NCBI GenBank assembly: GCA_009746045.1
Contig: RPFO01000436.1
Span: forward strand, 394,501-458,500
DNA length: 64,000 nucleotides
From: Mesostigma viride
Taxonomy: Eukaryota > Streptophyta > Mesostigmatophyceae > Mesostigmatales > Mesostigmataceae
Direction of reading: 5' to 3'
Positions 17,329 through 61,530 of the stretch are shown here, piece by piece; the stretch's first letter is position 1, and every line of letters starts with the position of its first letter. A program made the position numbers and the translations under genes. The notes under the pieces were generated by a model. It was not told the origin of the DNA. It did no database searches and saw only the letters and a program-made list of their open reading frames with translations.

Positions 17329-20300
17329 TTAGCAGATGGTGTTGGCCCAATCTTCCCACTCATCCCGTTGCTGCTCTGCCAATGCCAGTGCCTCCTCCAC
17401 TCGCTCCAAGTCCTTCTGCGCCGCTTCTGCTGCCAGCTCAGCGGCTCTTATGGCCACCTCAGCTTCCAGGGCCTGCGATGGCAACGTGTCCATCGCATGG
17501 CTTTGACCCACTATGTCAGCAGTAGAGGCTTGTGGACATACACAGTGCGCCGATCTGGACATAAAAATTATGTAGCCCTACCTCCAACGTAGCATGCCAC
17601 CAGATTCTGCATCCATTTCATCTCCATCAGCCTGAAAATAGGTAATGTGGCTAGTACCATGGCAGATTTGATCTCCCTATGGCCAGGAACCTAACAACTT
17701 CACGCCTGCTATAAGTGTCCCATTTACCACTACATTATACACAACATGTGCCTGCCTAAACCATCCTAATTATGAAATCACTGGCATCGCGTCATCTTGT
17801 TGCCTGACGAAGGCGCAAGCACACACAGAGCCGGCATGCATGACTGGGTAGCAGCCAGAAGTATATACCCCGCCGAAACACCCGTGCAAATGGTTACTCT
17901 TTCTAAGCACTCTCACCGGCCCCTTCCCCCTAAGGTGCAACGGCTACCCTCGCCCGTCTGTCCACATGGATTACATCTGTGCGCACCTGTTTGCTTGCTC
18001 GCCCCTCTGCACGCCATTAGCTGTATGCTTGCCCCTCTCACCCCGTCTGTTGCCTCGCCTGCACCTCGGCCCCCACCAGCCTGCTCGCCTGCACCTCGGC
18101 CCCCACCAGCTTGCTCGCCTGCACCTCGGCCCCCACCAGCTTGCTCGCCTGCCCCCCTCCTGCTTGCTCACCCCGCCCCCACACCTGTTTCCTCGCCTGC
18201 CCCCCAACTGCCTGCTCGCCTGCCCCCCAACTGCCTTCTCGCCTGCCCCCCAACTGCCTGCTCGCCTGCCCCCCAACTGCCTGCTCGCCTGCCCCCCTCC
18301 TGCTTGCTCGCCTGCCCACCGGGAACCCACCTGCTTGCTCGCGCGTGCCTCCGCATCCGCCAACTGGCGCGCGATCCGCGCCGTCTCGTCCTGCGACGCC
18401 TTGAGAGCAGCCTCCAGCTCTGCGCGGCGCGCCGTCACCTGGGTGTACTCGTTTTCCACCTGGCAGGGTGGCAAGTGGGGGGGTCAAAGGGGTGTGGTGG
18501 GATTCGACACCCAACACCCGGCCAGCAATCAGGTCATTAGCCACTTAACATTTGTGATTCCGAAATCACTCAACATCTGCTGGGCATTACTGTCATGGAC
18601 TATTTCTAGTTTTATTTTTTACGGACATCTTATGTGATAATATGCTCCGCCAACCCAGCCCCCACCTCCACCCCTGCCCCTCTTCTGCACCCCAACCCAT
18701 TAACTCGATCATCAGAGGCACATGTCCATCCTTTGCCGCATCCCATGCCAGTGACGCCGCAGTCATCGTTTCGGTTAAATGAATGAGAATATGACTTCAC
18801 AAAGATGATCACTGCAGCCATGACTATAGAGTTATTCTCAAGCTTTTCCTCCCCCCATAGCCGAGGTGCTGGCCCCGACACAACACCCCCTTCTCTCTAC
18901 ACCACAACCATAACCCTCCACAAACAAGACCCCCTTCTCTGTCCATAACCATTACGCGTGACCAACAACACCTCCTCTAGCCACAACCACTACCCTCCAC
19001 CCTTATGGGAGCCCCCACCTCCAGCTTGCCTGCGCTCAAGCGCGTCCATCCTCTGCCGCATGCCCCAGTGATCCACCACCCATGATACCTGTGGGAGCCT
19101 TTCCTATCACTGTGGGAGCCTTTCCTATCACTGTGGGAGCCTTTCCTATCACTGTGGGAGCCTTTCCTATCACTGTGGGAGCCTTTCCTATCACTGTGGG
19201 AGCCTTTCCTATCACTGTGGGAGCCTTTCCTATCACTGTGGGAGCCTTTCCTATCACTGTGGGAGCCTTTCCTATCACTGTGGGAGCCTTTCCTATCACT
19301 GTGGGAGCCTTTCCTATCACTCTGGTGCAATCCGTGATTACTCCCTTCAGTCATACACAAGTGTTGCAGGAGCAATAGCGCTGCCTTGCCTGCTCGTCAT
19401 TGTGACCTATTACTAAGACCTAGTATTATGACAAGTACACCTCCCCACACACGTTTAAGATTCTCAGGTTTAAGATCATGAGACCCTGGATTTTGAAATT
19501 TCAGGTTTAAGATCGCAGGGCTGGTTTTGGGCAAAAAGATCTTAAAGTTGGTACAAAAAGCTGCCAAGTTCCGGCCAGTGCCCAGTGTACTCAGGTATGC
19601 CGCATCATGTTTAAGAACGCCTACAGCTCTCAAATTTAAGATCATCAGCCCCGGATTTGATTTTAGGTTTAAGATCGCAGCCCTGGGTCGGCCGGACCCC
19701 AATCTTAAACGTGGGGGGGGGGGGGGTAGACCCGATAGGGCCAAGCCCCTATTATTGGAGACTCTACTATTTGGAGACTCGTATTCAAGTCCGGATGCTA
19801 TCTAAATTCCCGTGCCCGTGGCCCGGTGCCCGTGGCTACTGGCCCGTTGAAATTCCTGCCGTCCCTCCGTTGCTGAATTTTTTTGCCTGTGGCTAGCTGA
19901 GTGGCTGTTGCGGCCCGTGGGCCGTGGCTACAGGAGAGGCCCGTCGCCCGTCGCCCGTCGCCCGTCGCCCGTCGCCTGTCATTCCCTCCGTCCCTTGCTC
20001 AACTTTGCCCGTGGCCATTGGCCCGTGGCTATCGGCCCGTCGCCCAGTGCCGCTGAAATTCCTTCCGCCCCTCGCTGAAATTGCCCGCTGCTAGTTGCCC
20101 GTCACCCCTCGCCCGTCGCCTGGCATTCCTTCGATCCCTTTCTCGGAGTAGTGAGCTGCTTCGCTGTGCTCCAGAGAGAAGGCCACCGTTGGCGGCCGCG
20201 TGCCTGGCGGCGTACCTGTCGCTTCGCACGTAGTGTATCTGGTATTCATCCATCGATTTCCGGAGATCTCCGGAGTTACCCCAAATGGCTGATTTCCGTA

Positions 20301-23300
20301 CCATGAGTCCTTACCTTATTATCGGCGGTACTCCCCTAAATAGGCGACAAACGGTCATGAAGTTTGGTTTACACAGGGGTTAAGACCTACTGTTAGTGCC
20401 ATGCTTCTGAACATGCGGCTCGAGTTCCCGACAATGCCCCTCATTAATTCTGATTCCCCCACCTCCGGCTTGCGCGCTCACAGCGTGCCCACCTCGTGTC
20501 GCGTGCCCTAGTGACAATAGCCTACTAGCCACATGCTCGAGAGTGATGCCCCCACTCTCGATCCCCAAGCAGCATCCCCCCCGAGCCCCCCACCTCCAGC
20601 TTGCGCGCACACAACGAGTCCATCTTGTGCCGCATCTCCTCCATCAGCCGCCGGTGCTCGCCCGCACCCGCGCGCTTGAGCTCTCGATTCTCCCTGTGGG
20701 GGCGCGCCAGGTGCCGTGGAAAGAGACGCACCACTTTCTACTATGAGAGAAGGGCATACGCCGGCCCTTAGGGGGGCACACACTAGTAATAACAAAAAGG
20801 GCGTACACACGCCCATAAGGGGCACACACTAGTCATAACAAAAAGGGCGTACACACGCCCATAGGGGGCACACACTAGTCATAACAAAAAGGGCGCACAC
20901 ACGCCCATAGGGGGCACACACTAGTCATAACAAAAAGGGCGTACACACGCCCATAAGGGGCACACACTAGTCATAACAAAAAGGGCGTACACACGCCCAT
21001 AGGGGGCACACACTAGTAATAACAAAAAGGGCGCACACACGCCCATAAGGGGCACACACTAGTCATAACAAAAAGGGCGCACACACGCCCATAGGGGGCA
21101 CACACTAGACACTAGTCATAACAAAAAGGGCGTACACACGCCCATAAGGGGCACACACTAGTCATAACAAAAAGGGCGTACACACGCCCATAAGGGGCAC
21201 ACACTAGTCATAACAAAAAGGGCGCACACACGCCCATAAGGGGCACACACTAGTCATAACAAAAAGGGCGTACACACGCCCATAAGGGGCGCACACTAGT
21301 CATAACAAAAAGGGCGCACACACGCCCATAAGGGGCACACACTAGTCATAACAAAAAGGGCGTACACACGCCCATAAGGGGCACACACTAGTCATAACAA
21401 AAAGGGCGTACACACGCCCATAAGGGGCACACACTAGTCATAACAATAAGGGCGTACACACGCCCATCAGGGGCACACACTAGTCATAACAAAAAGGGCG
21501 TACACACGCCCATAAGGGGCACACACTGGTCATAACAAAAAGGGCGTACACACGCCCATAAGGGGCACACACTAGTCATAACAATAAGGGCCTACACACG
21601 CCCATAAGGGGCACACACTAGTCATAACAATAAGGGCCTACACACGCCCATAAGGGGCACACACTAGTCATAACAATAAGGGCCTACACACGCCCATAAG
21701 GGGCACACACTAGTCATAACAAAAAGGGCGTACACACGCCCATAAGGGGCACACACTAGTCATAACAAAAAGGGCGCACACACGCCCATAAGGGGCACAC
21801 ACTAGTCATAACAATAAGGGCGTACACAGGCCCATAAGGGGCACTCAGTAGGTGTATCTGGGCATCTGCTATGGAAGGGGCCACGCACCCGTTGTAACAA
21901 AATGGGCAGACACCTGCCATCGGCGCATGCGCCGGGTGTTGCAAAAGGGCCCATGCCGGCCAGTTGAAGTAAAAGGGCACACCACCTGCCAAGGGCATAA
22001 CGGTCATTAGGCGCATACCTGGCCTGTTGCAAGGGTAATCCAGCTAAGTAACGTCAAAGCCATTGCATCTAACAAACACAGGCAGCCACTTACGTGTCCA
22101 GGCCCTGACGCCCACCCTCCCCACGGGACTAGCATCACGGCTGCCTGATTTTCCATCCAGTAAGACCAGCCAAAACCATTGACCAAGTTCAGCCCTTACT
22201 TGACCAAGTTCAGCCCTTACTTGACCAAGTTCAGCCCTTACTTGACCAAGTTCAGCCCTTACTTGACCAAGTTCAGCCCAAGTCCAGCCCTTACTGTTCC
22301 AACCAGTAGGGGCCAGTCAAAACCACGAAACGGGGACCGTCCACAGGACTACCGTGGTCCCCCGCGTACTTCCCAACCAGCTGGGAAAGTGGAATTGATT
22401 GCCTTTCACAGCGGTAGAGTAGGCCCAGCCACGGCACGAGCATTATGAGCGCAGTCACCCGCTAACGTTTCCAACCAGTAAAAGGCCACCGAACGATGAG
22501 ACCAACATGGACACGCGCTAACTTCTCACGCCGCTGACTCACTTGACAAGCGGCTGACTCACTTTTCCAGCCGCTGGAGCCTCTCTTGGATGTCCGTAGC
22601 GAGCAGCAGGTTTAGCGGCAGCAGCTTGGAGCGTGCGCCCTTGCCGCCCCGTACAGTAACCCGGGCATCCATGTTGGCAAAGTCGCCGCCGTTCTCCTTG
22701 CCAGGCGAGGGGAGGCCGAGCGAGCCTCCAAACTCGGGTGCCTTCTTGTCCCCGTCCTCTGGCTCGCCTGCCACGATGACGATGCACGTGGGTGATTGTT
22801 CGAATCCATGATGATGTGGCAGTTGCCAGAAGCCCAGTGAATGGAAGGGAAAACGCAGATACGGTTAGCACAGCTGGGTGGCGAAAACTTGAATTGGGGT
22901 TGTACGGTGAAAGAGACCTAGCGACCTGTCGCCGGCCAGGACGTGTCAAAACTAAAGAGCTACTTAGTCGCGAAATTGAAACATTCAAGCGATAGCAGCG
23001 GCGACTGCTCCATGTCAAACATACCATGATAGTACCAGCACACAACCGAGGCCCACTATATACTACTACAGTAGAAAATAAACAGACCAGACAGATAATG
23101 AACACCTTGTCAGGTGTTTCCATGTTTCCGTAATGATGCCTAGGGACTGTAATACATCTTCACACACAATTGAGCATCAGACCCAGCCCAACGGCCCATG
23201 TCCAGGCTAGCGCTCATGGTCAGGCACCATTGAGCATGACCATGAATCTCAGCATCGATCGCATTTCGGAGAGTACCCTGCGTCTCTATCAGCAACCCAC

Positions 23301-26300
23301 TTGGCAACGTTTGCCAGCATCGGCGCCAATAAGAGCACCAACAGCGTCAAGCTGGGAATCAGTTTTGGCCTGGCGGACAGATTTGCTTAGTAGGGCAGCC
23401 TTGATAAATGTAAAGGAGCCGCACCCTCGCCATGCAGCCCTGCCCGACCATAACTATTTCCATATACTACCACATACCAGTATGTGCAGTCTAAACAAAT
23501 AAATGAAAAAATGGAAAGTGAAATAGCTGTGCCATGGGGAACCTGAACACGTCAAGGCAATAAGGTACAGCTCCACCCAGTAGCAGAAGGGTGTTTGCCC
23601 TATCAGTCCGGACTGTAATGCTGAAAACAGCGAAGCCCGAGGTCGACAAGTGGACACTTTGGTGAACGTGAAAAGCATATGTTGTAGGGAATGAGAACCG
23701 GCAGGCACATCCGACCGATACAGCGGTGCACTGACTCACCGCAGGCATCACTATATGGACCCAGCCACTCGCCATAGTCGCCATTCTAGTAGTATCAAAT
23801 TACGGACCCTCGTCACATCCCTATGGACCCATTCACTCACCAGTCACCATAACATCCTACTACGATTACAGACCTACATAGAGTTCTATATCATTACCAG
23901 ATGTGACTATGTAGAAGAATATAGTAACATCCTCATGGACCCACTCACCATCATCACCGCCCTGGAGGCTGGTGATCAGCGCGGTCAGCGCCGCCACCTC
24001 GTCCTGAGAGGCCTCGAGCGACTCAGCAAGCTCATCCGCCCTCATCCGCGCTGCCGTGAAGACACACATTACAGTAGCGCATACAGTAGCGCATACAGTA
24101 GCGCATACAGTAGCGCATACAGTAGCGCATACAGTAGCGCATACAGTAGCGCATACAGTAGCGCATACAGTAGCGCATACAGTAGCGCATACAGTAGCGC
24201 ATACAGTAGCGCATACAGTATCGCATACAGTAGCACATACAGTATCGCACCGCACACATCCCGTTAGTTGACACGCACCGCCGTCATTATTGCGCAGAGG
24301 GTGCGGGAATCGGGCATGATCCACGCTAGCGAGCGGGGTTATCAATTAGGGTACGATGTTGGCACGAGGGCGGGGGAGACAATTAGGGTATGATGTGGGC
24401 ACAGTACACCGTGGAAGGTGGGATGCAATCGTAGGGTAGTCCTAGTAGTATGATATTAGGGTTCGCACAGCTTATACTGGAATCGGAAGAATACGGCATT
24501 ACGGCATGGAGCAGCAGGATTGAGGGGATAAGATAAGATAAGATAAGATGAGATAAGGGTAGAGTGCGCGTGCCACAGTCGTACATAGGTACGTATGTAA
24601 GTGACGGTATGGCGGAGAGGGGAGATAGGGGGGGATAGATAGGGGGGAAAGGGGGTGGTATGCTCGAAGATTGAAGGCAGGAATAGTGCCACCAGCTTAG
24701 GCAAGTGGCAGGAACAGTGCAGCCGGCTTGCGTCAAGTGGCGTGCATGCAGGGCGATGGCATGACAAAAACGCGGGGTCGGTTGCTGCATCTCCAGCCAA
24801 GAGAAGAGGAGAAATAATGCCAAGTTTGGAACAAGCTGCTGCCTGAGCAAGAGCTGGGGAGAAGCTGGAGAAGCTGTTCCCTGAACAAAAGGTCAGGTAA
24901 CAGCTTCTCCCTCTCGACTTGGTGTCGTCCCTCTCAAACCAAAAATACAGCCAGAGATGAAATGGGCAGAATGCCACAGGAGGGCTTGTTGGCAGCGCAA
25001 AAGCAGACATGTGTGTAAGGCGACTACCCCAGAACACGGTTGCTAGCCCACATGGCTCCCAAGAGGAGTCACCAAGAGCCCTGGCAACTGTAGTGCACAC
25101 TTCTCTTTTGTCAAACCCCTACCATTTCAAGTACCTAGTCACACAACAATGGTAAATGAACTTAACCCCCGAATTTCCACACGGCGCCCCTGCATGCAAT
25201 GACATTGCCTGACGCTGCTGACGTGCTCTTCTTTATAAAGTGTTCTAGTATTTAAGTAATTGTTTTGCATCGCACTTACAAAACACGGCTTGAGCCACAC
25301 TTAAATCTAGGCACAGCGCGCAGGCAAACAACAGGGACAGCGCGCACCTTTGTTCACATTGGCTCTATTCGGCCGACCCGTACCTAAAACAAACAAGAGA
25401 TACATAATGACAACAAATGTGGCATGTCGACGGACAAAGGCGGCACACCTTTGCTCAGGTCGGCCCTCGTCAGCTCGTGCGCCTCCCTCTCCCTCTCCAC
25501 CTCCTTGAGCTGGTTCTGCTGGCACTGCGCACGCGTGTCACGCAGCGAACGCTCCAGCTCCAGGATCTGGAGGAGGCCAGGGTGGCGGGGTGGTTGCATT
25601 GACACCGCCAAGGAGCAAAGGGTTGCAGGCTATTCACAAAACATGCGTCGATTGTGGTAGGCTAACAACAAGAGGTGAGATGATTGGGTGGCTGAGACAG
25701 TAACGCGTCAACAAATGGTTTGACATGGTGCCTTGGTCACTTTGCCGACGGTGGCTTGTAGGTTTGGAATCCGACCAGATGGGAAAGTGGTGGAATTGTA
25801 CAGCTATCGGGGGAGGGGCGAGCTGGTATGAATCCCTGGCAGGATACAGGTAGAGCATTAATATCCGTTGGTTGACTAGTGTGTTAGATGGCATGGTGTA
25901 GCGCATTAGATTATGCCACATCATCACGGAGAAGCATGGGTGCTTGTGTGTAGTCGTATGCGTTGCGGGCTGTAGAAGCAAGTCGTTCTCTACGAAGGCT
26001 AGTTGGAACAGCGGGCAGATTGAACATGAAATGTCCAGCCCATCACTTCAGCCCCTTGCCCATCACCTCATCGCCTTGCGCATCACCGCAGCGCCTCACC
26101 CATCACCTCATCACCTTGCCCATCACTTCAGCCCCTCGCCCATCACCTGATCGCCTTGCGCATCACCGCAGCGCCTTGCCCATCACCTCATCGCCTTGCC
26201 CATCACTTCAACCCCTTGCCTTTCCAGTGACATCCATTCTATGGCAGCTTCTCTGAAAGTTAGTCCTGCTAAATCAGAAAATGATGCCTTTCTTAGAATA

Positions 26301-29300
26301 GACCACATGGTGAACCCCTCCAACAGCTCCAGTCGAGGCCTCTCCACCTATCAACCAGCCGTCTCGGGACGCTTCTCCAATGACCGAGTATATACTGCGA
26401 TTACTCTAATACTGACACCTGATTTCTGACACCTGGTTTGAGTGAATGCTCCCAGAAACCGCCCTTCCACCGCTTACCTCGGCGTGTCATCCCACATCGA
26501 TCGAGCTTCTCTACTTGAGATAGGACTGCCCCTCGTCACCATTACTCGCCTCGGCATCCTGCGCCTGCATGCATCTTGCGTTGCGCACTCTGGTCTATTC
26601 TGATAAAAAATGCTCTGAAAACTGCCCCTCGTCACCATTCCTCACGTTGGCGACTGGCTGCCTCCATTATCCCATCGCTGGGGTTCTGGGTTAACCCTGG
26701 GTGTGCCCCTATAAAACCCGCAGGCTCCGGGAGAGGCCTGGATATTCTCCCAAACTGGCGCCTCTCAATGAGTTCCAAGCATGTCTGCGGCTCTGGATGA
26801 TGGGGCAGCCTTACTGCATCCACTGTTTCTTTGCTACTTCTTGAACATGCATTGCTTCCACGGTTGGGCCCGCACCATAACGCAGAGAGAGTCCTCTGTG
26901 GCCTGCCCACTTGGGGCAGTAAGATAAGCTAGAGCACCTCCCTCCTCCTCGTTGTGTATAGGGGTTGAAGGTTCCTTTATAGGCACCCACATGACGCAGT
27001 CTACGTGCTTATAATGGATTAATTAATTAATCAAATCGATATTGAAGTAGTAGTACGTGCCATCACTAGCCACCCCCCCACCCACCACCTCGGCATCCTG
27101 CTCCTTAGCCACCCCCCCACCCCCCACCTCGGCGTCCTGCTCCTTAGCCCCCCACCCCCCACCCCTCACCTCGGCGTCCTGCTCCTTCACACGCGCGGCC
27201 AACAACGGGATGCGCTCCGCCTCATCCTCCAACTCCATGATCTGCGCGCAAATAAAACGAGGCAGATAAAACAAGGCAAATAGAACAAGGAACGCGTGCA
27301 CATGTGCAAAGACAGGTCCGTGATCTGCGCATAAATAGAACAAGGCAAATAAAACACGGCAAAAACACAACAAGGAACGCATGCACGTGTGCAAAGACTG
27401 GTGGGAGACATGTAAGAAGACAAGTCTGTGATCTGAGCGTGAGGGCAAGAAACCCGTTGACACCCACCAACCCACTAACCCATTTGAAAGCATGTAGCTC
27501 CAAGCACCATGATCCTCCAACGCCATGATCTGCGCGATGGCTAGTGATCGACAAAGAACTACAACAGACGTCATGGGCTGACAGCGCCACAGGTTTTACA
27601 GCACCACTGGTAACAACACAGGTAAGGCAGAGCCAGTCCTCCAGCTCCATGATCTGCGAATATTGGTATACCCCCGACAAGAGCACCGTAGAACAGTAAC
27701 AACACACCCAGGTTTCCAGACACCATGCACCATAGTCATGACTCTCCAGCTCCGTATTCTGCATCCCTTAGTACGCTGCTGCACACATACCACATAGCCC
27801 CGCGCTCCCTATGCTGTGCATCAACGCCCTCATCACAAGTGACAATGTCACACGCAGGACCAGGAACACTGCCAAGTGCTATTCATGCCTGTACTCGGGG
27901 CACGAGCAATGCCCCTGGGTACGCAACAGTCACTTTCCATGGCATTACAGATCGGTGTATGGCCGTGAGCCCAGCCATGCCCCTACCACCCAAACAAGCT
28001 GGCCGCGTTAGCCCTACGCGCCTGGCCCCTACAACCCAAACAAGCTGGCCGCGCTAGCCCTACGCCCCTGGCCCCTACAACCCAAACAAGCTGGCCGCGC
28101 TAGCCCTACGCGCCTGGCCCCTACAACCCAAACAAGCTGGCCGCGCTAGCCCTACGCGCCTGGCCCCTACAACCCAAACAAGCTGGACGATGCTACCTCG
28201 CTAGAAGTCAGACATCCAAAGTGCACACAAAGATCGAAAGCGACCACAGGTAAAGCGTGGTTACCAGAATGGTTTTCTAACACACTGAACGTGGACAACG
28301 CAGCCATTTTTCTGTCAGACTGGCCTTTCCAACACCTGCAAGGCTGGCCTTGCCAACGCTCCCAGCACCCGCAGCGCATGCGCTGTTCACCCCAGTGCGT
28401 TTCTGACGTGATGCGAGAGCCTGTACAGATCCACAAGCTGCCATACGCAACCGCCCAAGCACCCACAGCGTATAGACTGTCCAATCGGTTCCACTTAGCC
28501 TGCCAATGAGTAGCTATGTTGAGCGAGGCTGTGGCTTGCCTCCGGGCATGAGGGAAGACGGGTGTCTCTGTCCCCCTTCTGGTCGTGTAACAAACAGGGA
28601 TGTAGATTAGTGTTGACTGCAGCTGTGGCTTGCCTTGGGGAATGCGGGAAGAGGGGTGTCTCTGCCCCCCTTCTCACAAGGGATGGAAAGCACTATGACT
28701 ATGTATTATTGTGCTCTGCGACTCCCCAACGGGAGCGCGTGGCTGATTAACTAATCAATTAATTAGCCTGCCAAGTCCCCACGTACCCGCAGCACGTATA
28801 AAACGTACCCGCAGCACATACGCCTGATTCTGCTTCTCGAGATCTTCCGCGGTCTGGGCCGCCTGCAGCGCCGTCTCAAGACGCTCCCGATACTGACGCA
28901 AGCAACCGTGGTAGGCAACCGCCATGGCGCACACAACGGCAGGCCATCGCATCGGTTGTGAATATTTCATGGCACTTTCACGGCGCACGCAATGGTGGGC
29001 AGTCATCATGGCGCACGCAACCAAAACAACGGAGGTCAACAGTCATGGCACATGCATGCATGCCATGTTTAGACAGCAGTCTCAGCGCATGTAAACATCA
29101 CTATGGCCACGCGGCAGTCCAGCCGCAACGCAGCCATCGGCCATCGCACCGGCAAGCAACAGTTATGGCACTCAGCCTACTTGCTGTGTGGCCACTCTTC
29201 TTATTCACTATGTGTGGTGGCCATACCGGCTGCACGCTTATGGCACTCATCCTACCTGCTGCGCGGCCACTCTTCTTATTCACTATGTGTGGTGGCCATA

Positions 29301-32300
29301 CCGGCTGCACGCTTATGGCACTCATCCTACCTGCTGCGCGGCCACTCTTCTTATTCACTATGTGTGGTGGCCATACCGGCTGCACGCTTATGGCACTCAT
29401 CCTACCTGCTGCGCGGTGCGCTCGAAGGACTTGGCGCGGTCCCGCTCCTGGTGCGCCACGTCCAGCTCGTCCGTGAGGAAGCGAACGCGGTCTCGCAGGG
29501 CCTCGGCGGTGCCCGCCTGGCGAGGTCAACCGATCCAGAACGGTGACGTGAACCCATGCTAACCCATAGTCATTGTGCAATGAAACTGATCGAGCACAGC
29601 AACCTAGGCATGACCCCATTAACTGTGCCATGAAGTGATTAAGGACGGCAAGCTGAGTCCACGCTTGGACATGGCGATGATATTAGATCAAAACACAGCA
29701 AATCATACCGAATCAAAACAAATTTGTGATTAGGTCATGCGCAAATAGAGGACGATACGACATGGCGACATGAATCCATTGAGGAAACTTTTGCCTCCGT
29801 TGGAAATTCGCAGCGGACATGACTCCAATCCATAGCAAGAAGAGGGATCGGACATGACTCCAATTCATAGCAAGAAGAGGGATCGGACATGACTCCAATT
29901 CATAGCAAGAAGAGGGATCGGGCATGACTCCAATTCATAGCAAGAAGAGGGATCGGGCATGACTCCAACTCATAGCAAGAAGAGGGATTGGGCATGACTC
30001 CAATTCATAGCAAGGAGAGGGATCGGGCATGACTCCAATCCATAGCAAGAAGAGGGATCGGGCATGACTCCAATTCATAGCAAGAAGAGGGATCGGGCAT
30101 GACTCCAATTCATAGCAAGAAGAGGGATCGGGCATGACTCCAATTCATAGCAAGAAGAGGGATCGGGCATGACTCCAATTCATAGCAAGAAGAGGGATCG
30201 GGCATGACTACAATTCATAGCAAGAAGAGGGATCGGGCATGACTCCAATCCATAGCAAGAAGAGGGATCGGGCATGACTCCAACTCATAGCAAGAGGAGG
30301 GATCGGGCATGACTCCAATTCATAGCAAGAGGAGGGATCGGGCATGACTCCAATCCATAGCAAGAAGAGGGATCGGGCATGACTCCAATTCATAGCAAGA
30401 AGAGGGATCGGGCATGACTCCAACTCATAGCAAGAGGAGGGATCGGGCATGACTCCAATTCATAGCAAGAGGAGGGATCGGGCATGACTCCAATCCATAG
30501 CAAGAAGAGGGATCGGACATGACTCCAATCCATAGCAAGAAGAGGGATCGGGCATGACTCCAATTCATAGCAAGAGGAGGGATCGGACATGACTCCAATT
30601 CATAGCAAGAAGAGGGATCGGGCATGACTCCAATCCATAGCAAGAAGAGGGATCGGGCATGACTCCAATTCATAGCAAGAAGAGGGATCGGGCATGACTC
30701 CAACTCATAGCAAGAAGAGGGATCGGGCATGACTCCAATTCATAGCAAGAGGAGGGATCGGGCATGACTCCAATCCATAGCAAGAAGAGGGATCGGGCAT
30801 GACTCCAATTCATAGCAAGAAGAGGGATCGGGCATGACTCCAATTCATAGCAAGAAGAGGGATCGGGCATGACTCCAACTCATAGCAAGAAGAGGGATCG
30901 GGCATGACTCCAACCCAAAGCGAGAGGAGGGATGGAACTTTGCAGGATTGATCATTCCAACATGGCGAGATGAAGCAATAAAACACGCGCCTCACTTCGG
31001 AGACTGGGGGCGAGACGCTCCACGACATAGAGAGACTAGGATGTAGGAAAAGACACTAGGAAAGCAAGTGGGGACGGCCAGATGGAGAGAACCATACACT
31101 TAACATAATAAACGCAGAATCCGAAGTACACACTCTCCCACCCAACAACGTGTCCAGGCTGGCCTTCTGCAGCTCATCCCCTCCTCCCTATCCACACTAA
31201 CTATATCGTAGCTACTAGGCATAAATCAGTACACCATGCCTACCCACCTGCCTCGCTAGGCCGGCCCACACTACCCAGATCTAATCTAATAGGCATAAAT
31301 CAGTACATCATGCCTACCCACCTCTAAATGCTTTCCAAGCCCATCTGTGGGCTCTGGACCGTGGCCGGGGCAGCCTTACTGCATCCGCCATGCTTTTGCT
31401 ATGCCGAAGCTTTCTTGCACCCACAATGACGCCCGCACCATGATGCGGAGAGAGCGCTCTGTGGCCTGCCCACTCGAGGCAGTGAGAGAAGCTAGGGCAC
31501 CCTCCCTCCTTCTCATTGTGGATAGGGGTTGTCTCCTTGATAGGGGTTGAAGGTTCCTTCATGGGTACCCACGTGACGAAGTCTAAGTGATAATTAATTC
31601 ATTAATGCCCACTCACCTTCCTCTCCAGGCCGGCCATCCTGTGCTCATCCTCCCTGCGCGCGTCCACCATGGCCTGAAGAGCGTTGGCCGATTCTGCTTG
31701 CGCCGCCACCGCCGCGCGCGCCGCCCGCGCGCTCTCCGCCTCCCTGGCACTGCTCACCCGGTGCGCCTCAACCAGCGCCTTGTGTTCCCCTTCCAGCCTA
31801 CTCATCTGGTCCATGTACTGCTGGCACCTGCGACACGGCGACCTCATAGCCTCCCTCGCTACAGTGTCCCTTACGAGAGTGTCAATGGTTAGATTGTCCA
31901 TTGCTCTTGTGTCCGTAGCGGCCGCTCCGCCCCACGAGGGCGACCCCGGGGGTGGGGTCACCCTGGATTTCTGTACAATGTCCTTGGTTACAGTATCCTT
32001 GGTTGTAGTGTCCTTGGGTATTGAGGGGATGCCCTCACGAAGCCTAGTCGTCTCCTTGGTGTTGGCGATGGGGTAAGCTTCGGGGAGGGGGCTAGCAGGA
32101 TGGGCTACCACGGGACAAGGGCCAGGTGGTAGCTCGGGGGGAGGGTTTAGCCAGGCCTGGACGGGCTCCATAAGGTACTGCAGCACGGCCTGGTGGCGCT
32201 TGTCCAGGGACAGGACGGCCTTGATGTACTTGACGGACATGGTGAATCCGTTCATGGACGCAAATAGGACGAGACCGGCCAGATCCCGGGTCGAGTTTCG

Positions 32301-32567
32301 TGCCTGGAAGATCGCCGGGTCGAGTGGAATGCCAAGGACTTCGACCAGGAAGGACTCTACGCCGTCCTTGAGCCGGAGACCGTCCACGGGGACCGTCCGC
32401 GGAGGGAAGATGGTAGGCGAGAGTGACTGCATGACGTCGTACAGCTGCGTGACCACGTCGGTCTCGATCACGCGCTGCGGGGGCAGTTGGTCATGGAGTC
32501 GTAGCGCACCGCACCATGACAAGATGGCGGCGCTTTCCTCGTCGCTAAGCACGCTATTGAACATCAT
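17329..32567 (-). CDS. Ten-exon coiled-coil protein with an ordered N-terminal domain
   Basis: Exons, in order of translation: 31617-32567, 29406-29516, 28809-28892, 27170-27241, 25449-25566, 23949-24050, 22563-22767, 20594-20693, 18331-18459, 17329-17472 (stop TAA). All junctions are GT-AG and phases agree throughout (0,0,0,0,1,1,2,0,0), giving 671 aa. Residues 1-150 (MMFNSVLSDEESAAILSWCG; LVLFASMNGFTMSVKYIKAV) form a Leu/Val-rich helical domain, perhaps of CH/Hook type, but I cannot confirm it. Residues ~155-235 are a Pro/Thr linker with XXDTVXKD repeats. From ~245 to the end almost every exon is heptad coiled coil (MDQMSRLEGEHKALVEAHRV; DRVRFLTDELDVAHQERD; RERLETALQAAQTAEDLEKQ; MEEMRHKMDSLCARKLE; AELEAALKASQDETARIA). 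It is probably a cytoskeletal, centrosomal or flagellar structural protein; that is inference. Most exons are only 72-129 nt, while introns are 0.7-2.1 kb and packed with tandem arrays. The start ATG-ATG at 32562-32567 may have an untranslated exon upstream. Confidence 0.75.
18055..18320. repeat. Intronic array built from the exon 9 donor region
   Basis: About ten units of CTTGCTCGCCTGC or CTGCTCGCCTGCCCCCCAA. The real junction at 18325-18345 reads ACCCACCTGCTTGCTCGCG, so on the minus strand the array repeats the exon end GCGAGCAAGCAG and its GTGGG donor. It looks like an amplified exon echo. Confidence 0.7.
18656..18748 (-). repeat. Degenerate echo of exon 8 (20594-20693)
   Basis: CAGCCCCCACCTCCA and CATGTCCATCCTTTGCCGCA match, in the same order, the real exon end and donor CCCCACCTCCAGCTTGCG ... 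GAGTCCATCTTGTGCCGCA. About 40 bp of other sequence is inserted between them. Confidence 0.55.
19012..19066 (-). repeat. Second echo of exon 8 with donor
   Basis: CCCCCACCTCCAGCTTGC followed by GCGTCCATCCTCTGCCGCAT closely copies 20588-20635. On the minus strand it keeps the donor GTGGGGG. It lies 1.5 kb inside the intron. Confidence 0.7.
19085..19323. repeat. 21-bp tandem array (TGTGGGAGCCTTTCCTATCAC)
   Basis: Eleven nearly perfect copies of a 21-bp unit starting TGTGGGAGCCTTTCCTATCA. It sits directly beside the exon 8 echo at 19012, whose flank also reads ATGGGAGCC. Confidence 0.95.
19445..19725. mobile_element. MITE-like element with ACGTTTAAGATT inverted ends (empty-site copy)
   Basis: The ends are ACGTTTAAGATT (19452) and AATCTTAAACGT (19702), a 12-bp inverted pair. 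Inside, GATCTTAAACCTGAAATT-like motifs recur. A second copy at 33245-33347 plus 35258-35440 is split by a 1.9-kb transposon. This copy carries the uninterrupted sequence (GTAGGCGTTCTTAAACATGA on the minus strand). No coding region. Confidence 0.65.
19801..20125. repeat. GCCCGTGGC / GCCCGTCGCC low-complexity block
   Basis: Short repeats of GCCCGTCGCC and GCCCGTGGCTA, with GAAATTCCT[GT]CC recurring about every 100-120 bp. Intronic. Confidence 0.7.
20456..20510 (-). repeat. Nearest echo of exon 8 with donor
   Basis: CCCCCACCTCCGGCTTGCGC and then GCGTGCCCACCTCGTGTCGC copy 20588-20635. They lie 80-130 bp downstream of the real donor. Confidence 0.7.
20750..21850. repeat. 46-bp tandem array with a hairpin in every unit
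   Basis: About 24 copies of a 46-bp unit with GGCACACACTAGTCATAACA and GGGCGTACACACGCCC. The latter can fold as a 6-bp stem with a 4-nt loop. Variants (GGGCGCACACACGCCC, GGGCCTACACACGCCC) break one pair. It sits in the intron between exons 22563-22767 and 20594-20693. Confidence 0.95.
22178..22290. repeat. 21-bp tandem repeat (TTGACCAAGTTCAGCCCTTAC)
   Basis: About five copies of a unit containing TTGACCAAGTTCAGCCCTTA, intronic, in the same intron as the 46-bp array. Confidence 0.9.
24065..24250. repeat. 12-bp tandem array (ACAGTAGCGCAT)
   Basis: About 15 copies of ACAGTAGCGCAT, in the intron just upstream of the acceptor of the exon at 23949-24050. It comes within ~20 bp of that acceptor, so it occupies the usual polypyrimidine/branch region. 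Confidence 0.95.
26035..26225. repeat. ~20-bp repeat (CTTGCCCATCACCTCATCGC)
   Basis: Nine or so variable copies of a CCCATCAC[CT]TCA-centred unit in the intron between exons 27170-27241 and 25449-25566. Confidence 0.85.
26745..27015. repeat. Dispersed repeat, copy 1 (pair with 31318-31605)
   Basis: It shares GGCAGCCTTACTGCATCC, CTCTGTGGCCTGCCCACT and GGGGTTGAAGGTTCCTT in the same order with 31318-31605. Both copies end in a TTAATTAATTA-like tract shortly before an exon donor of the coiled-coil gene. It may be a SINE or MITE; the termini are not clear. Confidence 0.65.
27087..27149 (-). repeat. Two in-frame echoes of exon 4 (27170-27241)
   Basis: ACCTCGGCATCCTGCTCCTT at 27087 and ACCTCGGCGTCCTGCTCCTT at 27126 copy the real exon end at 27168. 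The offsets are 42 and 81 nt, both divisible by 3. Each echo keeps GAG|GT and the frame is open through both (KEQDAE repeated three times). Use of the distal donors would add 14 or 27 residues. Confidence 0.75.
27242..27770 (-). repeat. Repeated acceptor-side copies of exon 4 start
   Basis: Minus-strand GCAG|ATCATGGAGTTGGAGGA is the true acceptor and exon start at 27241. Similar CAG|ATCA/AATA + GGAGCTGGAG sequences occur at ~27320 and ~27425 (weak), 27512-27535, 27634-27655 and 27740-27760. The region also duplicates the intron stretch 27245-27300 at 27325-27400. Confidence 0.65.
28000..28190. repeat. 45-bp tandem repeat (CTGGCCCCTACAACCCAAAC)
   Basis: Four to five copies of a 45-bp unit (CTGGCCCCTACAACCCAAAC + AAGCTGGCCGCGCTAGCCCT), intronic. 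Confidence 0.9.
29165..29405 (-). repeat. 84-bp tandem array carrying exon 2 donor echoes
   Basis: Three units, each with ATCCTACCTGCTGCGCGGCC or a near copy. On the minus strand that is CCGCGCAGCAG|GTAGGAT, the true exon 2 end and donor at 29406. The first unit is degenerate (AGCCTACTTGCTGTGTGGCC). The array is tandem-fused to the real exon. Confidence 0.8.
29805..30920. repeat. 35-bp tandem array with a 140-bp higher-order period
   Basis: About 31 copies of a 35-bp unit (CATGACTCCAATTCATAGCA + AGAAGAGGGATCGGG). Variants CAATTC, CAATCC, CAACTC and AAGAAG/AAGAGG recur in a fixed order every four units in the right-hand part, giving a 140-bp higher-order repeat. It lies in intron 1 of the coiled-coil gene. 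Confidence 0.9.
31140..31340 (-). repeat. Three echoes of the exon 1 donor region
   Basis: 31142-31192 (TCCAGGCTGGCCTTCTGCAG, then CTCATCCCCTCCTCCC), 31236-31274 (TACCCACCTGCCTCGCTAGG) and 31306-31330 copy parts of 31604-31655, the true exon 1 end and donor. The first could be mistaken for a small coiled-coil exon (DELQKASLDTLL), but its similarity to exon 1 explains it better. Confidence 0.55.
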
Positions 32568-48456: not shown

Positions 48457-49587
48457 ATACAAGCGCTAGGGCAGTCTCGAGTGGACACGTGTGTAGTACT
48501 CCTACACACAGATCTCGAGTGATTTATCTAGTACCAAATCCGACAGGCTTGCATCACTCCCCGGAAAGGAGAACTTTTGCGGATGACTGTAGGTGTAAGT
48601 TGGCGATGCCATGGTAACCGGAGACGTCCGTCCTATAGTCAGCGAAAGTTGGTGCGAGAGGTCCCCAGTTCGATTACGGTCGGATTCACTTGCAGATCGC
48701 GTTTTTCCGCGTTTTCCGCGGCCCGGCCCTGAACGCAAGCGGTTTTCACCTTTGCGGAGTGCCTGATCAGAATATACGCTTGGCTGATTTCGTTAGTACC
48801 GGCTACGCCCCCTTCTAATAAAGAAGGATCCAGCCGTGTTCAGCCCGTCTCACGTTTCGAGACTGAACAAGTCTCGAGTGGACACGTGTGTAGTACTCCT
48901 ACACACAGATCTCGAGTGATTTATCTAGTACCAAATCCGACAGGCTTGCATCACTCCCCGGAAAGGAGAACTTTTGCGGATGACTGTAGGTGTAAGTTGG
49001 CGATGCCATGGTAACCGGAGACGTCCGTCCTATAGTCAGCGAAAGTTGGTGCGAGAGGTCCCCAGTTCGATTACGGTCGGATTCACTTGCAGATCGCGTT
49101 TTTCCGCGTTTTCCGCGGCCCGGCCCTGAACGCAAGCGGTTTTCACCTTTGCGGAGTGCCTGATCAGAATATACGCTTGGCTGATTTCGTTAGTACCGGC
49201 TACGCCCCCTTCTAATAAAGAAGGATCCAGCCGTGTTCAGCCCGTCTCACGTTTCGAGACTGAACAAGTCTCGAGTGGACACGTGTGTAGTACTCCTACA
49301 CACAGATCTCGAGTGATTTATCTAGTACCAAATCCGACAGGCTTGCATCACTCCCCGGAAAGGAGAACTTTTGCGGATGACTGTAGGTGTAAGTTGGCGA
49401 TGCCATGGTAACCGGAGACGTCCGTCCTATAGTCAGCGAAAGTTGGTGCGAGAGGTCCCCAGTTCGATTACGGTCGGATTCACTTGCAGATCGCGTTTTT
49501 CCGCGTTTTCCGCGGCCCGGCCCTGAACGCAAGCGGTTTTCACCTTTGCGGAGTGCCTGATCAGAAGAAAATACAAGCGCTAGGGCA
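48457..49587. mobile_element. SINE-like trimer (397-bp unit) with 17-bp target duplication
   Basis: Three direct copies with period 397 bp (starts near 48474, 48871, 49268; the third ends at ~49566). The array is bracketed by the perfect 17-bp repeat ATACAAGCGCTAGGGCA (48457-48473 and 49571-49587), and the right end reads GAAGAAA before the duplication. Each unit has CCCCAGTTCGATTACGGTCG. A solo copy at 50.1 kb has CAGTTCGATTCCGG, a good polymerase III B-box. A TCCGTCC/GGTCGGA pairing around it resembles a tRNA acceptor. Taken together it is most likely a tRNA-derived SINE. The ORFs inside are not genes. Confidence 0.7.
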
Positions 49588-60714: not shown

Positions 60715-61530
60715 CACCCCTGCATGGTCCCGGAAACGCGCTTGCGCTCTGGCCTATCTGGATGACATCGATCCTGGTGTACTCCAAGACCTTCGAGGAG
60801 CAAAATAGTGTGACGGACCGATTTGCCTCAGTGGGCAAAAGGTTCCGGCACTCTTTAACCCCTGGTGGAGGACGTCGATATGGACGTCCTGCGCATCATG
60901 GAAGAAGAGCATGATTCTAGCGACTAGCTCTCGGCCCGCAGGGCCAAGGTCCGCGCGGGGCGCAGCGTCCCCTTTCTGGGCCACACGCTTTCTGCAGCAG
61001 GCGTGGCCACGAACCCCGAGAAGATCGCCTCTGCATGTCCAAGAGTGGCGGCCAGCTAGCCCCGACCGACGTGAAAGGGCGTGCGTAGCTTCCTGGGGAT
61101 TGCGTCCTACTATGTATCGGCGCTTCATCCCCCGGTTTGCCACGATCGCGTCGCCCATCAACGCTCTCCTCAAGAAGGGCATGTCCTTCGTCTGGTCTGC
61201 ACAGTGCCAGCAGGCCTTTGAGGCCCTCAAGGCCAGTTTGACTGCGGCCCCCATGCTCGTGCTCCCAGACCCGTCCCGGGGTCCTCCGGCCTGCAGGACC
61301 AAGGCAAGGGCTTGCAACCGGTTGAGTATGTACATCTCCCGCACACTGATCCCCGCCGAGCTGAACTATCCGGTCCACCAGCAGGAGCTGTTGCATGGCT
61401 GTGGTCTACTGTTGCCACACATGGCGCCACCACCTGTTGCATGGGCGCGCAGTTTGATGTTGCAGTCAGCGAGACAGGGGACCTCGACCCCGCCCGTTTG
61501 ATTATTCACACGGACCATATATAGGCCCCT
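60715..61530 (+). pseudogene. Ty3/Gypsy Pol fragment (RT end and RNase H)
   Basis: Across three frames the plus strand encodes PFLGHTLSAAGVATNPEKIA, then VRSFLGIASYY/YRRFIPRFATIASPINALL, FVWSAQCQQAFEALKASLTA, PMLVLPDP and SRTLIPAELNYPVHQQELL. This is the standard order of the Ty3/Gypsy reverse-transcriptase C-terminus, connection and RNase H regions. At least three frameshifts. LTRs were not found. Confidence 0.8.

Follow-up and report, generated by a model that had tools for sequence, protein, structure and literature searches.

The closest described systems, as presented in the accessible parts of the respective reports, are intron gain through the tandem genomic duplication of exon segments that contain AGGT (PMC3443670, PMC2891723), gene structures altered in human segmental duplications by tandem repeats lying at exon-intron boundaries (PMC2812944), the creation of introns by DNA repeat expansion in Cryptococcus (PMC2395259), and small tandem duplications formed at staggered breaks, with 43-bp overhangs in one experiment (PMC8355091). 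Among the literature matches listed, which consist of title and start of abstract and cover few subscription papers, no paper presents copies of exon edges in the adjacent introns as a genome feature. Intron size varies greatly among eukaryotes, and the mutational route by which introns grow is mostly unseen. Here we describe such copies, hereafter echoes, in a 64,000-nt stretch of the Mesostigma viride genome (the window, positions 394501-458500 of its contig; window numbering is used for it below) and in the contig around it, where exon borders keep a readable record: the copies are of known origin, and the conserved exon serves as a reference for dating them.

The central locus is a predicted coiled-coil gene of ten exons on the minus strand, extending from window position 32567 to 17329 and modelled from its open reading frame and GT-AG introns. 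Exon 1 runs from the start codon to a GT donor (31617-32567); the open frame continues through exons 2 (29406-29516), 3 (28809-28892), 4 (27170-27241), 5 (25449-25566), 6 (23949-24050), 7 (22563-22767), 8 (20594-20693) and 9 (18331-18459), and exon 10 (17329-17472) carries the stop codon. The predicted gene reads cleanly in this form, with introns of 513-2134 nt that are all GT-AG and a frame of 672 codons, stop included, uninterrupted by internal stops. The sole Pfam match of the predicted protein is to the HOOK coiled-coil family, below the Pfam cut-off, and exon 1 found a single match, itself, in a search of the 440-Mb assembly (2243 contigs). Introns 1 and 4 have in common a 225-nt segment of 73% identity (31350-31600 and 26802-27007), which looks like a dispersed repeat, since shorter relatives of it lie at three other places in the 344 kb surveyed.

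All nine donors of this gene are echoed in their own introns, as an earlier note on this DNA had claimed. In an ungapped test, the junction-anchored donor was compared with its own intron and with 200 dinucleotide shuffles of it; exons 1, 2, 3, 4, 7, 8 and 9 beat 200/200 shuffles, and the scores of exons 5 and 6 were reached by 3/200 and 22/200, respectively. A gapped test aligned the border from -30 to +25 with the intron beyond +25, again against 200 shuffles. Here exons 1, 2, 4, 5, 6, 8 and 9 beat 200/200, and the scores of exons 3 and 7 were reached by 13/200 and 1/200 because their echoes, at offsets of 22 and 20 nt, lie mainly in the part left out. Each of the nine donors thus exceeded every one of its 200 shuffles in one or other test. 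Of 24 listed blastn matches (E<0.01, with 4 or more exon nt), 19 run across the donor in direct orientation; the others are one match to the exon 8 tail only, three at the exon 4 acceptor and one inverse match. Exons 5 and 6 gave no exon-intron blastn match at E<0.01.

The echoes of this gene, all on the minus strand, range from short tandem units of 20, 22, 39-42 and 75 nt to copies located 131 to 1894 nt away. Exon 1 has two, at 31266-31236 (offset 369, blastn E 7e-5, matched by 0/200 shuffles) and 31179-31137 (offset 471, E 6e-4). At exon 2, a 75-nt tandem array of 3.4 copies (29163-29416) begins in the last 11 nt of the exon and crosses the donor; it was recovered by TRF, the anchored ungapped test and blastn. 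The exon 3 echo (28781-28798, offset 22) was found by the anchored ungapped test and blastn. Exon 4 has two echoes in a tandem unit of ~39 nt (27074-27145; TRF, anchored test and blastn) and two further, weaker ones at 26569-26545 (E 5e-4) and 26485-26467 (E 0.004). Echoes of exon 5 (25335-25373, offset ~102) and exon 6 (23812-23848, offset ~101) were each reached by 0/200 shuffles in the gapped test; the aligned part of the latter, -10 to +25, is mainly intron flank. A 20-nt tandem follows exon 7 (22518-22556; TRF, anchored test and blastn). Exon 8 is followed at offset 131 by a copy of 47 exon nt and 7 intron nt (20456-20509; anchored test and blastn), at offset 1574 by a second echo (19012-19061; blastn) and at offset 1894 by a partial copy of -60 to -25 (18724-18759; blastn E 0.002). 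The echo of exon 9 is a minisatellite with 23- and 30-nt units (18054-18317; TRF, anchored test and blastn). Most positions given in the earlier note were recovered: 31236, 31142 (as 31179-31137), 29165-29400, 28781, 27087/27126, 25343 (as 25373-25335), 23822 (as 23848-23812), 22529, 20456, 19012 and 18055-18320. Those at 31306 (exon 1), 23753 (exon 6) and 18656 (exon 8) had no blastn match at E<0.01, and the two weaker exon 4 donor copies, together with three acceptor copies of the same exon, are new.

These donor-spanning copies far exceed the shuffled and exon-interior controls. At score 10, 8/9 donors of the gene match their own intron, against 3.6% of 1426 exon-interior anchors compared with the downstream intron, 3.1% of 618 compared with the upstream intron, and none of 8 donors compared with the upstream intron. 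Intron positions compared with their own intron reach the same score in 41.7% of 2642 cases, because the introns are rich in repeats. Acceptors behave differently in this gene: compared with their upstream introns, only one of nine, that of exon 4, is echoed, by three copies on the minus strand at 27658-27637, 27536-27512 and 27354-27317 (blastn; the best matched by 0/200 shuffles).

The survey of the contig covered the window together with 80 kb and 200 kb of adjoining sequence (344 kb, including 18,040 N). A gene finder trained on the same contig predicted 25 chains, the 23 better of which comprise 268 introns. The finder fuses neighbouring genes and mis-picks some borders; it chose the third donor copy for exon 4 of the coiled-coil gene, and in an FtsH chain an exon-head copy was apparently taken as an exon. 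For this reason a curated model was used for the coiled-coil gene, whereas the comparison of three finder settings used the finder's model throughout. Introns with N nearby were left out, as were exons shorter than 45 nt or with a coding score not above 6 (not above 8 in the three-setting comparison). The minimum intron length was 250 nt in the 36-mer and echo-list tests, 460 nt in the 400-nt border, windowed-offset and three-setting tests, and 600 nt in the window-position test. Intron 1 of predicted gene 2, a tandem array, was left out of the counts of splice strength, class and codon position.

Across the 344 kb of this one contig, exon edges are copied into the adjacent end of the adjacent intron, in direct orientation. 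In the 400-nt border test (score 10.5, copy at most 400 nt from the border), 35/111 exon tails have a copy downstream of the donor and 14/111 exon heads have one upstream of the acceptor, with matched controls at 1-4%; donor copies are the commoner (Fisher p=0.001). The far end of the same intron holds copies of 4/111 tails and 1/111 heads, and exon interiors are copied in 2/86 and 1/87 cases. At a laxer score of 9 the counts rise to 40/111 and 24/111, against 5-10% in controls. Three gene-finder settings gave similar results, with 24/81 tails and 12/83 heads copied outside the window. Introns fall into 7 with both donor and acceptor echoes, 21 and 6 with one kind, and 52 with neither, so that no significant association between the two is seen (p=0.11). 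The copying is thus confined neither to the coiled-coil gene nor to donors. Reverse-complement copies are unsupported (1/111 tails, 2/111 heads), seeding at donors only is ruled out by the echoed acceptors, and intron gain by internal duplication finds no support in the position of the tail copies, which, with tails compared with their own intron, lie in its first 400 nt and rarely in its last 400.

Other scores and segment definitions agree. At score 12, with the coiled-coil gene excluded, donor echoes occur in 34/245 introns and acceptor echoes in 29/245, compared with 3/223 for donors against the upstream intron, 3/223 for acceptors against the downstream intron and 26/1440 for exon interiors. 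With purely exonic 36-mers at score 13.5, 27/140 tails and 14/135 heads are copied, and the controls stand at 1.0% of 105, 0 of 103, 0.9% of 348 and 1.8% of 336. The same score is attained by 19.7% of 360 random intron 36-mers, arrays included, which puts the copying of exon tails roughly on a par with that of intron sequence at large; outside arrays, the rate for intron windows is mostly 1-12%.

Several echo-bearing junctions could be set against homologues. Trimmed pieces of six predicted proteins fall in Pfam families: IQUB, FtsH (AAA and M41), lysine-decarboxylase-like, protein kinase, acyltransferase and CLPTM1. The best solved-structure match of the neighbouring IQUB gene is FAP253 (chain 7jtk_s), presumably a Chlamydomonas protein, and the alignment is gapless across introns 4 and 5 (counted from 0 along the chain, as for FtsH), both echo-bearing. 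The FtsH prediction aligns with YME1 without gaps across introns 15 and 18, both echo-bearing; at intron 17, also echo-bearing, 13 extra predicted residues stand directly before the aligned TAYHE segment, and another stretch is poorly predicted. This FtsH/YME1-like protease gene runs on the minus strand from window position 2222 leftwards to about -16700, with echoes at donors and acceptors. In the seven chains that hold the Pfam-matched genes and a TPR gene, which we take to be TTC7-like, echoes were found at 19/41 donors and 11/40 acceptors, with junctions partly checked. Judged by open reading frames and these alignments, the exon-proximal splice pair is probably the one used. Chance itself is ruled out by shuffles and matched controls. 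A broader reading, in which echoes reflect chance, low complexity, a shared splice consensus or gene-finder error, could draw on the repeat-rich region, where 14.5% of surveyed bases lie in tandem arrays, on the low-complexity setting of gene 2 intron 1, gene 10 intron 3 and gene 11 intron 14, and on the mis-picked borders; it is nevertheless most improbable, as the matched controls stay low, the exon parts match far past the splice consensus, and the FtsH and IQUB junctions just described align gapless to solved homologues.

Echo offsets cluster. Among the 27 stronger donor matches are offsets of 94, 98, 98, 98, 102, 114, 114, 117, 117, 118 and 131 nt, and among 14 acceptor echoes -91, -95, -99, -102, -106, -108, -116, -122 and -136; windowed counts give a donor peak at 70-130 nt and a weak acceptor peak. 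A similar peak is seen in direct repeats between intron segments outside arrays, 19/54 of which lie at 80-119 nt. Of all intron bases, 20.8% are matched by a direct repeat within their own intron; in shuffled introns of a subset, none are. These intron-intron repeats are themselves mostly partial: among 106 non-array pairs, 15% cover 0.8 or more of the offset, and at offsets of 70-140 nt 10/32 listed pairs cover 0.8 or more of the unit, in which they closely resemble the exon echoes. Partial local copying is therefore widespread here, with exon edges as one instance of it. The peculiarity is that exon-derived copies stem from the edge and tend to break off close to the junction.

This asymmetry is visible along the alignments. 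Mean identity over 25 donor echoes is 0.82-0.88 at -20 to -9 (0.88 at -12 to -9) and falls to 0.43 at +8 to +11. For the 14 acceptor echoes, mean identity stands at 0.86-0.95 across the first 20 nt of the exon and at 0.45 from -16 to -13. The median extension on the exon side is 30 nt for 21 donor echoes and 28 nt for 10 acceptor echoes, and on the intron side 7 and 14 nt, respectively. The exon parts of the ten acceptor echoes measure 29, 23, 28, 28, 28, 29, 28, 16, 22 and 29 nt; seven of the ten have 28-29 nt, a sample too small for a claim. By position (non-array, score 13.5), donor windows are copied in 20/86 cases at -36 to 0, 20/85 at -24 to +12, 3/86 at 0 to +36, 1/86 at +12 to +48 and 0/68 at -108 to -72, and, at acceptors, copies exist for 9/94 windows covering the first 36 nt of the exon and for 4/85 covering the final 36 nt of the intron.

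Echoes at offsets of 60 nt or more were divided into those with intron-flank similarity (class I) and those without (class II), with offsets under 60 left out. The 36 echoes comprise 14 of class I, 11 of them at 91-136 nt, and 22 of class II, at 95-920 nt; simple tandem duplication thus fits only part of them. Neutral duplication of full units was simulated with a 70-nt flank, uniform ages and assumed indel ratios of 0.1-0.4, and flank similarity was expected in 85-99% of detected cases; by the simulation's own criterion, 12/38 echoes (gene 2 intron 1 pair included) have a flank. Under this model, class II fits poorly as purely neutral tandem duplication, with a weak residual flank signal: class II flanks compared with mismatched cross-pairs gave p=0.01 for donors and p=0.085 for acceptors, and 2/22 lie above the 95th percentile of the cross-pairs. 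The proposal in the earlier note that introns grew by duplication across the border is accordingly upheld in part: border-spanning tandem duplications with intron flank exist, but the 22 echoes of class II have no clear flank copy, exon-touching copies are only part of the repeats, and echoes show no steady rise with intron length (17/34 donors at 800-1300 nt, 9/39 above 1300 nt).

One way to lose the flank would be a full border-spanning tandem duplication followed by exon-to-echo gene conversion or by selection on the echo, while the flank decays. The residual flank similarity of class II donors agrees with this, as does intron 6 of predicted gene 16, where an echo at 95 nt with flank and another at 194 nt without it are what repeated duplication would produce. 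The class II exon part, however, differs from its source by 0.104 at codon positions 1 and 2 and 0.168 at the third (class I has similar rates, 0.080 and 0.152), which looks like free change and leaves little room for strong constraint, and conversion should tend to carry flank too; we regard this course of events as possible but doubtful. In total, the differences by codon position are 35/26/52, which fits an unconstrained copy of a coding exon.

The splice sites of the echoes bear on whether they are functional. GT is kept in 13/26 donor echoes, with GC in a further 5, and AG in 11/13 acceptor echoes, whereas the rate at random positions is ~6%. In strength, acceptor echoes come close to the real sites (2.94 vs 3.88; at least as strong in 6/13), and these values could suggest that selection maintains echoes as alternative splice sites or as small alternative exons. 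The average donor echo is weak (1.0 vs 5.3), however, although 8/26 are at least as strong as the real donor, and the offsets of donor echoes are multiples of three only at the chance rate (9/27). Selected alternative sites are hence improbable, and frame-selected alternative donors in particular are unsupported. An introner or a transposon with target-site duplication is likewise unsupported: the stretches between copies (offset 60-260) have no shared element among their mutual matches at E<0.01, apart from two stretches from one prediction and one 13-nt inverse match.

Copying limited to the exon edge would account for the asymmetry directly. The template would be the exon edge with a few intron bases, inserted in the nearby intron, for example a fragment, of RNA or shielded by protein, whose end lies close to the splice site, or a product of repair synthesis that starts from microhomology at the splice site. 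The drop in identity past the junction, the longer extension on the exon side and the near absence of interior copies speak for it. Against it stand the 14/36 echoes that carry flank, the class II donor flanks slightly above cross-pairs, some of which may be faded duplications, and the exonic queries, which favour exon-heavy matches; intron-intron repeats are mostly partial too, so partial copying need not involve exons, which lowers the odds of exon-guided copying. We know of no mechanism with such exon-edge specificity, and copying of this kind is unlikely. Unlikely too is a local process that recognises exon edges and inserts 20-60 exon bases with a few intron bases repeatedly, often ~100 nt away, at both ends of the intron. 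If it did operate, mutation, and not only selection, would follow the map of splicing, and the template would perhaps be RNA or a splicing intermediate.

The reading we favour is that introns here probably grow in part by recurrent local duplication, with border-touching copies surviving by virtue of exon-proximal splicing. Short stretches would be duplicated locally and repeatedly, as tandem units of 20-75 nt and as copies at offsets of ~100 nt. Duplications that alter an exon would be removed by selection, so exon-derived copies should be expected at the border, inside the intron; those of an exon edge would survive when the copy falls in the intron and the exon-adjacent site stays in use. 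Use of the exon-adjacent site on both sides is what would be expected under exon definition, in which exons and not introns are recognised. The outcome would be a trail of decaying look-alike splice sites beside exon borders, more at donors than at acceptors; the predominance of donor echoes could reflect better tolerance of an additional downstream donor than of an additional upstream acceptor. Such a survival bias could explain much of the apparent seeding on splice sites with no special mechanism. Partial, dispersed copying would copy exon interiors too, yet interior copies are hardly seen, which leaves faded tandem units with an exon part that was kept similar, or edge-tied copying; the favoured account does not explain the ending of many longer-offset copies close to the splice site.

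Other features were seen in and around the window. A 397-bp tandem repeat of 2.8 copies with 100% matches occupies 48473-49566. Several diverged open-frame copies with a motif like NVIVKxFD lie at ~52.8-57.5 kb and recur in predicted chains elsewhere on the contig; two open frames from 51.4-55.0 kb had no Pfam match. An open frame at 60809-61498 has a short match to an RNase H-like reverse transcriptase domain (RT_RNaseH_2), presumably of Ty3/gypsy type. Outside the window on the same contig, at window-relative 287520-300381, an apparent inverted duplication consists of two oppositely oriented gene pairs whose predicted proteins share their starts (MMDHYETSN and MAEELHRAN). On two other contigs (C1641:60944-67934 and C887:345845-349664), chaperonin exons have identical scores, perhaps as alleles or through a recent duplication; polymorphism of echoes could be read at these two loci.

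The record at these borders raises two testable questions: how the choice is made in splicing among adjacent sites that are almost identical, and whether exon edges guide duplication or have no bearing on it. The known systems, within the accessible parts of their reports, resemble it in some respects and differ in others. As in AGGT intron gain, a short tandem duplication at exon sequence puts a second splice-site-like motif nearby; there the duplication lies inside an exon and makes a new intron, whereas here the introns already exist and bear extra copies of the exon edges that flank them, at both ends. Human segmental duplications likewise have repeat arrays at the exon-intron border, but PMC2812944 concerns, in its accessible part, single cases in recent paralogues, with no border-wide frequency or offset peak. 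Local repeat expansion alters intron content in Cryptococcus as it does here, although PMC2395259 describes the multiplication of whole, near-identical introns within a single gene. Staggered breaks offer a general mutational route to short direct duplications of the kind seen here, while PMC8355091, judged by its accessible part, deals with experimental breaks in mouse cells and with a subject other than splice sites.
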